A stretch of 34,341 nucleotides of DNA from Candidatus Peregrinibacteria bacterium CG10_big_fil_rev_8_21_14_0_10_49_10. GTDB taxonomy: Bacteria > Patescibacteriota > Gracilibacteria > Peribacterales > Peribacteraceae. The number at the start of each line of letters is the position of its first letter. Position 1 is the stretch's first letter. The translations under genes and the position numbers were made by a program. The notes below the pieces were generated by a model, which was given only the letters and a program-made list of their open reading frames with translations, ran no database searches and was not told the origin of the DNA. Below, piece by piece: positions 24,379 through 26,497 of the stretch. The stretch lies in contig PFDR01000042.1 in the NCBI GenBank assembly GCA_002772545.1, positions 6,384-40,724 of the forward strand, written 5' to 3'.

Positions 24379-25059
24379 CTACAAGCCCAATTGCTTTCTA
24401 ATTTCATCTGCCTGCTCAGCCTCCTGCTTTTGCGCATCCTGCTGGACCGTAACAGTCTGCAGATCCTTCCAGTCTTCTGCATGCTTTTGTTCCAGCTTCA
24501 TCAGCTGAAGAAGGTGCTTGGGTGAGAGTTCAGAAAATTTCTTTCGCTCTTCCTGCAAAATCTTCTGGAGTTCATCTATCTGAAACTGGCTGAGTTTGGG
24601 AATGGCCTGAATAATGCGCCACTTCTCATCTCGTGTCAGTGAAATGCTTCCACGGAGAAGCGTAAGAAAGCCCTGTTCATCGAACTGGGTTTCGGGGTGT
24701 GCAGGAGCACCGATCTTATCGTTACTCAGCTGAGCGGCAATACTGCCAAAGCGGTAGTCCCCTACTTCTCCAAGTATGCGGATATCTTCGTCATCATACC
24801 CCTGTTCCTTCGTCGCCTGCTGTCCGGGAGGAGGCGGAGGTGGCCCCTGATCCTGCGGAGGTGGGGGTGGCTGCGTTCCGGCCGGCTGAGCGCCTGCTGC
24901 CACTGCAGAACCTGCTGCGGGAGACGTTTGTGGTGGCGGAGGCGGAGGTGGAGAAGAAAACACCTGTGTAGGATCAAGTCCACCCTCGGGAACACTGTCT
25001 CCGGGGCGTACGGGCTTGGCATCGCCTTGTCCTGCCGGAGGTGTAGTACCGTCTGTCAT
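24379..25059 (-). CDS. Hypothetical protein with polyproline-rich N-terminus and helical C-terminus
   Basis: SSPPPPPPPQTSP and QPPPPPQDQGPPPPPPGQQ tracts; C-terminal KWRIIQAIPKLSQFQIDELQKILQEERKKFSELSPKHLLQLMKLE. Confidence 0.75.
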   Translation of the reverse strand: MTDGTTPPAGQGDAKPVRPGDSVPEGGLDPTQVFSSPPPPPPPQTSPAAGSAVAAGAQPAGTQPPPPPQDQGPPPPPPGQQATKEQGYDDEDIRILGEVGDYRFGSIAAQLSNDKIGAPAHPETQFDEQGFLTLLRGSISLTRDEKWRIIQAIPKLSQFQIDELQKILQEERKKFSELSPKHLLQLMKLEQKHAEDWKDLQTVTVQQDAQKQEAEQADEIRKQLGL

Positions 25060-25153: not shown

Positions 25154-25181
25154 TTGACACACAATTCGAAATACGTATGAT
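25154..25181 (+). promoter_or_regulatory. Promoter TTGACA-16-TATGAT
   Basis: -35 25154..25159, -10 25176..25181. Confidence 0.75.
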
Positions 25182-25194
25182 TTCGGTAATGGAA
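25180..25194. promoter_or_regulatory. Candidate operator copy 2 ATTTCGGTAATGGAA
   Basis: Located at the predicted +1 of the promoter at 25154..25181. Confidence 0.5.
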
Positions 25195-25221
25195 TTTGTC
25201 CAAAGAACACCCGCAGGCAGC

Positions 25222-25272
25222 ATGATGATGCACATGATGCACACCCCTCTGCGAGGCGTTCGTAAGACATAA
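25222..25272 (+). CDS. Candidate 16-aa leader peptide MMMHMMHTPLRGVRKT
   Basis: ATG ATG ATG CAC ATG ATG CAC ACC CCT CTG CGA GGC GTT CGT AAG ACA TAA between the promoter and the terminator. Confidence 0.5.
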   Translation: MMMHMMHTPLRGVRKT

Positions 25273-25298
25273 TCTACTAAGAACTACGAATCTAATGC

Positions 25299-25320
25299 CC
25301 CGCAGAGATGCGGGTTTTTT
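25299..25320 (+). terminator. Intrinsic terminator CCCGCA-GAGA-TGCGGG-TTTTTT located 23 nt before the next start codon
   Basis: 6-bp GC-rich stem, tetraloop, six Ts. Confidence 0.8.
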
Positions 25321-25342
25321 GTATCTCTTTACTTTTTCTCCC

Positions 25343-26380
25343 ATGGCCATCCTTACTCCATTCGAAGAAAATATCCTCTCCAGAGAGGTAAGTGCCGTAC
25401 ATGCTTTTTCGGACACATTTGATGCAAATGCTGCAAGAGACGCTTCCGACCCTCGTACAGCAGACTTTGATGCAGAGGTCACAACGGACTTTCGGTCTTT
25501 GAGACTGACCAATGATACAAAGCACTCCATTGCCCGTAATCCTGACTTAGGTGCATATGCAGCAGAAACGATAATTCGTTTACAAGATCATGCAGCAGGA
25601 CTCATAGAAAGAATTGAACAGAACGGAGTACCGGCTTCTGCAGTACGGAAATACAGAGAGCAACTTCAAGAGCAAACACGACAAGTTGTAGTAAATTGTG
25701 CTAGACGCAATAAACCGGGTGAGCAGAGAACAAACGGTTCGGATTTCCTGCTTGGCATTACCCACAACGGTATAGAAATTTACAGTACACCAGCAGAACT
25801 TCTCCGATTCTGTCGTAGAGATATTTTGAGTTTATTTAGAATTCCTAACAAAAGCCATCCTCTGTTCGATGGACAGAGAGAGCAATTTCGCTCTTCTATT
25901 ATTGCATTAAGTCGATATTTCCCAGAGCATCTGGAACTTCTCTATCGTTACAGTTCAAGAGAAGAGCTCTTAGCGGCATTGGAGAATGGCTCAGAAACAA
26001 CAATTCCCGATCAGAAGCATCCACTTCAGCTCGCCTTTGCAGACCGATATGGAAACGTGCGAGCGCGGGCAAGAGATATTGCGCATACCCGTGGACAGAT
26101 GGAGGAATGTCTCAATGGCAGTGGTGTAGTAGGTATTCGCAATGGGCATGAATCCACACCTATTATCGCTCATGTTACGAAATGCTTAGATGAAGTACCA
26201 GGAGATCAAATAGGTATTTATCACAACGTTGCAGATGGAAAAACACGTACTGGAGAACCTGGATACCTCGAAATTGTGCGTAAGTTTCCTGATGAAGGCG
26301 GGGAAGAAGAAGTAACACAAGATGCCTACGAAACTATCGGTGCAAAATTAGGACATCAATTGGAAATTGTTGCTGTGTAG
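25343..26380 (+). CDS. Uncharacterised protein; C-terminus resembles SAM-hydroxide adenosyltransferase (DUF62) C-terminal barrel
   Basis: FADRYGNVRARARDI...GDQIGIYHNVADGKTRTGEPGYLEIVRKF...IGAKLGHQLEIVAV recalls the DUF62 C-domain pattern; N-terminal SAM-binding motif not seen. Confidence 0.6.
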   Translation: MAILTPFEENILSREVSAVHAFSDTFDANAARDASDPRTADFDAEVTTDFRSLRLTNDTKHSIARNPDLGAYAAETIIRLQDHAAGLIERIEQNGVPASAVRKYREQLQEQTRQVVVNCARRNKPGEQRTNGSDFLLGITHNGIEIYSTPAELLRFCRRDILSLFRIPNKSHPLFDGQREQFRSSIIALSRYFPEHLELLYRYSSREELLAALENGSETTIPDQKHPLQLAFADRYGNVRARARDIAHTRGQMEECLNGSGVVGIRNGHESTPIIAHVTKCLDEVPGDQIGIYHNVADGKTRTGEPGYLEIVRKFPDEGGEEEVTQDAYETIGAKLGHQLEIVAV

Positions 26381-26410
26381 CAATATTCGCTCTTTAACAT
26401 CACTTTTTTT

Positions 26411-26472
26411 ACACTGCCGACTGGTGGTCACCGTGTTACAACGTGTAATACTGTGGATACCACCGGCAGTGT
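26411..26472. other. Large imperfect hairpin of about 30 bp in the 5' region of the 26498 gene
   Basis: ACACTGCCGACTGGTGGTCACCGTGTTACA-ACG-TGTAATACTGTGGATACCACCGGCAGTGT. Confidence 0.85.
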
Positions 26473-26497
26473 ACTGCGTTTAGAAAGGAGGCCTGTT

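Follow-up and report, generated by a model that had tools for sequence, protein, structure and literature searches.

The Met-rich reading frame and terminator that lie in front of a 345-aa gene at position 25343 raise the question of whether they form a leader that governs transcription of that gene, and if so, what the leader senses. The window, that is, the whole 34,341-nt stretch of contig PFDR01000042.1 analyzed here, comes from a Candidatus Peregrinibacteria genome of 1.25 Mb in 98 contigs. We hold with high confidence that the element is a methionine-specific, ribosome-mediated transcription attenuator placed before a gene for an SAM-splitting type of enzyme. An earlier, sequence-only reading had proposed a Met/His leader-peptide attenuator here; its methionine part is upheld by conservation, by covariation of the 2:3 and 3:4 pairings, by the match of codon and pathway in relatives, and by the SAM_HAT fold of the product. 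The promoter, Met-rich ORF, segments 1 and 2, terminator, and gene start all lie in the sequence where that reading had placed them, and the features are as follows.

24379-25059, reverse strand: 226-aa gene (ORF), a divergent neighbor; the leader sits between it and the 345-aa gene

25154..25159, forward strand: -35 box TTGACA (TTGAC kept in 34 of 40 Met leaders)

25176..25181, forward strand: -10 box TATGAT, 16 nt from the -35 box (30 of the 34 strong-promoter relatives share the 16-nt spacer)

25189..25272, forward strand: putative leaderless leader-peptide ORF MEFVQRTPAGSMMMHMMHTPLRGVRKT, 27 aa, starting in frame 7 nt past the -10 box, stop at 25270-25272

25210-25217, forward strand: segment 1, CCCGCAGG, read from the sequence at the place given earlier

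25222..25242, forward strand: putative control codons ATG ATG ATG CAC ATG ATG CAC (the Met run); Met codons kept and indels in threes among 39 relatives

25222-25272, forward strand: MMMHMMHTPLRGVRKT and its stop codon, the 16-codon ORF of the sequence-only reading, as read from the sequence; second half of the 27-aa leader

25247..25256, forward strand: segment 2, CTCTGCGAGG, 5' arm of the antiterminator, within the leader ORF; pairs with 25301-25307

25299..25307, forward strand: segment 3, common to the antiterminator and the 5' arm of the terminator (from the sequence and the conservation of pairing)

25299..25320, forward strand: intrinsic terminator CCCGCA GAGA TGCGGG TTTTTT, from the terminator scan; pairing kept, with covariation, in relatives

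25343..26380, forward strand: putatively regulated gene, 345 aa, ATG at 25343; predicted divergent SAM hydroxide adenosyltransferase/chlorinase/fluorinase fold

Within the window, positions 25247-25253 (CTCTGCG) are the exact reverse complement of 25301-25307 (CGCAGAG), and the leader stretch folds better than shuffled sequence (z = -3.7). The terminator scan says little by itself, since it returned 9 matches in 3.6 kb against 3.6 expected. The decisive argument against chance is conservation across dozens of genomes. BLAST with the intergenic region gave recurring short matches that coincide exactly with the Met run and segment 2. The loci of these matches and, independently, the regions upstream of the 345-aa protein's homologues, found by protein search, carry the same arrangement: a Met-rich ORF, a segment TGCGAGG, and a terminator CCCTCGCA...TGCGAGGG-T. 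A covariance model (R1) built from 13 such elements has a match at E <= 1e-4 in 38 of the 74 genomes of the window's family. Conservation in relatives had been suggested as a check on the original proposal; the Met-rich ORF and the segments of both the 2:3 and the 3:4 pairing do recur there.

The R1 element is also found in other families of the class (353 genomes), where some weak matches are not real, and among 380 genomes sampled across the phylum there is one clear case outside the class (L126), followed by a gene that resembles the SAM_HAT-like family by eye. Genomes of the relatives are mostly 0.7-2.1 Mb. Weak R1 matches such as L105, L109, L110, L113, L114, L116, L128, L131 (a GroEL-like C-terminus), and L132 were inspected and are not counted as leaders. 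An exact-pattern scan of public genomes, in a collection without near relatives, gave five matches, all of them in ordinary coding sequence and none a leader. Four loci (L034, L035, L041, and L047) have tandem pairs of Met attenuators before a single gene; the targets of such pairs include a SAM_HAT-like protein and SAM-type methyltransferases.

Strong promoters in the Met leaders (TTGACA, mostly a 16-nt spacer, TAnnnT) are followed 6-9 nt past the -10 box by an in-frame ATG or GTG, with the frame open into the Met run, in all 34 of the relatives that have a clear promoter. Of the start codons at that position, 38 are in frame and one is out of frame. The leader ORF very likely starts, judging from these sequences, at ATG 25189, leaderless and 27 aa long, and not at the Met run. 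The 16-codon ORF drawn from the Met run by the sequence-only reading thus had the correct frame and stop (25270..25272) and too late a start. Since the Met codons are internal to the leader, they would be read by elongator Met-tRNA.

Met leaders mostly carry four to eight clustered Met codons. These codons are kept; methionine has no synonymous codons, so selection on the amino acid and selection on the RNA at ATG are not directly separable. The residue between the two Met blocks may be His, Ser, Ala, Pro, Gln, Leu, Gly, Asp, or Thr, and His is therefore no control residue: of the proposed Met/His control run the methionine half stands, and histidine as a co-control residue is rejected, position 4 of the run accepting any amino acid. 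Across 39 leaders, 119 of the 122 gap runs in the ORF part have a length divisible by three, which is not so in the 3' part; this count is supportive and not independent, because the alignment of the 39 leaders was fitted to R1.

The window's own genome also has leaders built in this way around other codons; there, a search for a promoter plus a leaderless start gave 11 places, against 2 in the reversed control. A leaderless Leu-rich leader MHQRTLALGLLTLPALSRVEGLLTAEGRLHA with a terminator (L140, C71:3160) is followed by LeuA (540.6 bits, against an NCBIfam cut-off of 532), and a leaderless Phe/Tyr-rich leader VIQQTFSYGFYFSPFSAGKEPMRLM (L137, C53) stands before a prephenate dehydratase-like gene. 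A third, Lys/Thr leader MQLASTKTMQMKKTSPKRKGNC (L070/L139, C71:1247-1407), also leaderless and with a terminator, precedes a 134-aa gene; in relatives, Lys/Thr leaders precede aspartokinase-type proteins (L068, L075, and L096). Ile-rich leaders, MMYQSIISSIIILALGVRR and MAQSLMIISMIIISATKA, occur in L071 (own genome, C73; leaderless) and L080 and are followed by divergent isopropylmalate/citramalate-synthase-like genes, which suggests an isoleucine branch. The window's own genome further has a leader-like ORF MIHSRSSNGSQATLGGGCCSAVYYAVSA with promoter and terminator on C49 (L135). The pairing of Leu codons with LeuA, Phe/Tyr with prephenate dehydratase, Lys/Thr with aspartokinase, and Ile with isopropylmalate-synthase-like genes, all in the same layout, supports the methionine reading of the window's leader.

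These leaders also bear on two other ways of reading a run of AUG codons. The run could sense translation initiation (fMet-tRNA or initiation factors) or serve as a ribosome decoy, and not gauge elongator Met-tRNA; methionine is also the start residue, and the ORF as first drawn appears to open with ATG repeats. We reject this on the leaderless in-frame starts, as the frame begins upstream at an ATG or GTG in 34/34 clear-promoter relatives and leaves the Met codons internal, and in other leaders of identical layout the place of Met is taken by Leu, Ile, Phe/Tyr, or Lys/Thr codons that suit the pathway in question. Sensing of initiation is thus highly improbable. Alternatively, the nascent peptide might stall the ribosome in response to a ligand (methionine, SAM, or a metal held by Met and His), with no part for codon starvation. 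Met- and His-rich peptides are able to bind metals, and PLRG/MRG-like residues are common to the leaders past the Met run. However, the LRG/RG residues are accounted for by the RNA of segment 2 (TGCGAGG), His is not conserved, the spacer residues vary freely, and the other leaders exchange the amino acid to suit the pathway; we give arrest by the peptide itself very little credence.

The RNA side of the methionine attenuator was assessed in 39 leaders. Terminator pairs are intact in 93% of cells, against 33-58% when slid, and both-sided changes occur in seven cells. For the antiterminator (2:3), the pairs are intact in 89% of cells, against 35-60% when slid, with both-sided changes in eight. 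A swap test over 74 leaders shows that a leader's terminator arm fits its own ORF better than other leaders' arms (P = 1e-8); restricted to the 34 leaders outside the core set, P = 8e-4. The 3:4 terminator and a 2:3 pairing that breaks it, both claimed from the single sequence, are thus supported. In 39/39 leaders, the antiterminator is the more stable of the two structures, and the RNA that links segments 2 and 3 gives it an extra, sequence-variable helix (mean z = -1.85). The third proposed pairing, 1:2 (CGCAG/CTGCG), is not supported: It is possible in the window with a nonsignificant shuffle P = 0.12, and it is not enriched across the family (mean z = -0.4). Such a protector hairpin is present in trp and his and is not taken as essential.

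We simulated the ribosome by masking the RNA to 15 nt past the start of the P-site codon and folding at equilibrium. The mean P(terminator) over 39 leaders is 0.27 (median, 0.05) when the run's first Met occupies the P-site, 0.93 when its last Met does, and 0.94 at the stop codon. Ribosome position thus flips the predicted fold, the antiterminator being favored by a stall at the Met run and the terminator by a ribosome at the stop codon, which is the behavior that the sequence-only reading had foreseen when it let a stalled ribosome free segment 2 and a ribosome at the stop hide it. For the window's own leader, P(terminator) stays at 0.00 as far as codon 4 of the run; beyond that it is 0.55-0.76. 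In 11 of the 39 leaders, this equilibrium model gives P(terminator) >= 0.5 already at the first Met codon, so that equilibrium folding is not enough for all of them and cotranscriptional timing would have to play a part.

A ligand-binding riboswitch or T-box, the ORF then being fortuitous, would also account for competing terminator and antiterminator folds in front of SAM and methionine genes. However, what is conserved is a reading frame whose indels come in threes, and outside segments 2 to 4 nothing like an aptamer core is kept. No Rfam 15 family matches the window's leader or 20 further loci at the gathering threshold, which speaks against a known SAM riboswitch or T-box family at these loci, and we consider a riboswitch or T-box extremely unlikely.

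The genes behind the Met leaders accord with a methionine attenuator. In other families of the class, they include MetA/HTS (homoserine O-succinyltransferase; L101, E = 3.6e-121, L089, and L107), an O-succinylhomoserine sulfhydrylase-type enzyme (L102, 4.6e-138), homocysteine S-methyltransferase (L082, L092, L095, L104, and L108), and SAM_HAT_N proteins (L081 and L087). The window's family contributes a homocysteine S-methyltransferase (L060) and a full SAM_HAT protein (L066). A likeness to homocysteine methyltransferase is seen by eye only at L083, L084, L085, L090, L094, L097, and L111. The Met control codons and the pathway of the genes behind them agree, for the window's gene by fold only. 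The element has its own promoter and terminator and might be taken for a separate small gene (for a peptide or sRNA) with no relation to the gene downstream. This is barely plausible, since the downstream start codons lie ~20-30 nt past the T-run in most relatives, too near for a separate promoter, the genes downstream belong to methionine-related classes, and segment 2 keeps its match to segment 3.

Against this, not every Met leader stands before a gene with a known link to methionine; exceptions include the genes for small "MVNILP" proteins of ~70 aa. At 12 loci (L036, L038, L039, L044, L048, L050, L053, L055, L056, L058, L063, and L064), the Met leader is followed by a small protein of 64-99 aa; these mostly begin MVN(I/L)LP or MVVL, start ~22-35 nt past the terminator, and form a small-protein family. 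A flavoprotein-like gene stands behind a Met leader at L035:1-1311 and L093:1643-2902 (Pyr_redox_2 in L093). In the window, a long near-perfect hairpin, CACTGCCGACTGGTGG...ACCACCGGCAGTG (26410-26473, z = -3.2), lies between the 345-aa gene and the next gene, which encodes 214 aa and has AGGAGG before its start; a 15-base part of this hairpin recurs in one other genome of the family (G041), directly behind that genome's Met leader.

The window's 345-aa protein has no family match at the Pfam gathering score; one relative (L033) matches SAM_HAT_C at E = 5.8e-5, just under the Pfam cut-off. A profile search of PDB sequences was uninformative, returning mainly maltose-binding-protein fusions and a nonsignificant match to 2zbu, so fold comparison was used instead. 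With an AlphaFold2 model (pLDDT 89.5, from 16 aligned sequences), every one of the 29 PDB matches below E = 1e-3 is a SAM hydroxide adenosyltransferase, a chlorinase, or a fluorinase, the best being 2zbv (3.2e-10, 13% identity). The TM-scores, 0.40-0.49 by query length, indicate the same fold, diverged and extended, a likeness at the level of fold only. On the predicted model, the product is a divergent member of the SAM hydroxide adenosyltransferase/chlorinase/fluorinase (ex-DUF62) fold, too divergent for Pfam. The resemblance to SAM hydroxide adenosyltransferases that had been noticed in its C-terminus is borne out to that extent, and hydrolysis of SAM to methionine and adenosine is a plausible reaction for it.

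We propose that transcription from ~25188 would yield a leaderless mRNA whose first codon opens the 27-aa leader. With ample Met-tRNA, the ribosome would pass the Met codons to the stop and cover segment 2 (25247-25256); the terminator (25299-25320) would then form, and transcription would end ~22 nt short of the enzyme gene. When charged Met-tRNA is scarce, the ribosome would halt within the Met run, segments 2 and 3 would form the antiterminator, and polymerase would continue into the 345-aa gene. If the product is a SAM hydrolase, its reaction would yield methionine and adenosine and so could plausibly win methionine back from SAM. More broadly, we lean slightly toward the view that the class runs leaderless leader-peptide attenuators genome-wide (Met, Leu, Ile, Phe/Tyr, and Lys/Thr) and that these are its chief means of amino-acid control; in the methionine branch, starvation would turn on SAM-splitting enzymes that recover methionine from SAM.

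Ribosome-mediated attenuation of the trp/his type is the classical mechanism of amino-acid operons. Like the trp, his, thr, ilv, leu, and phe leaders of Proteobacteria, the element has a promoter, a short ORF with clustered control codons that match the pathway, an antiterminator that overlaps the ORF, and an intrinsic terminator before the gene. It differs from them in its Met control codon, in being apparently leaderless, in lacking a conserved 1:2 protector, in its targets (MetA, sulfhydrylase, homocysteine methyltransferase, and SAM_HAT-like proteins), and in belonging to a lineage of ~1.2-Mb genomes. As with SAM riboswitches and Met T-boxes, methionine and SAM genes would be controlled by premature termination, but the sensor here is a putatively translated ORF and not an aptamer or a tRNA-binding RNA.

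In 2010, leader-peptide attenuation was reported as known only from Proteobacteria and Actinobacteria, and the same work extended it to Firmicutes, with histidine leader peptides before hisS/hisZ (PMC2965389). The present leaders likewise lie outside Proteobacteria and Actinobacteria and differ from the Firmicutes cases in amino acid, gene, and lineage. Leaderless leader-peptide attenuators are described in Actinobacteria, e.g., Streptomyces lividans leuL, trpL1, and ilvL (PMC8079986), which resemble ours in placing a leader peptide from a leaderless transcript before amino-acid genes, in an unrelated lineage. In a survey of Actinobacteria, the upstream regions of methionine operons yielded no conserved RNA regulatory structure (PMC1262725). 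The only methionine leader-peptide proposal that we found in the literature is one weak Streptomyces case, S. lividans metL MSTTSDRTPATEATTTPGARCMCRRMCAF before metNIQ, which has scattered Met codons and, as its authors state, no typical intrinsic terminator (PMC8079986); the leaders described here have, in contrast, clustered Met codons (mostly four to eight), a clear terminator, and wide conservation. In the open-access literature, we found no leader peptides for Patescibacteria or the candidate phyla radiation, and leader-peptide control in this class does not seem to have been described before. Attenuation itself is known; a widespread, leaderless methionine attenuator in this lineage appears to be new. 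The logic of these leaders is conserved over many genera, in ~1.2-Mb genomes, for several amino acids and from leaderless starts. From sequence, the leaders show what such hard-to-grow cells sense and make; they also offer functional hints for divergent SAM_HAT-like and "MVNILP" small proteins, and predictions that are testable in metatranscriptomes now.
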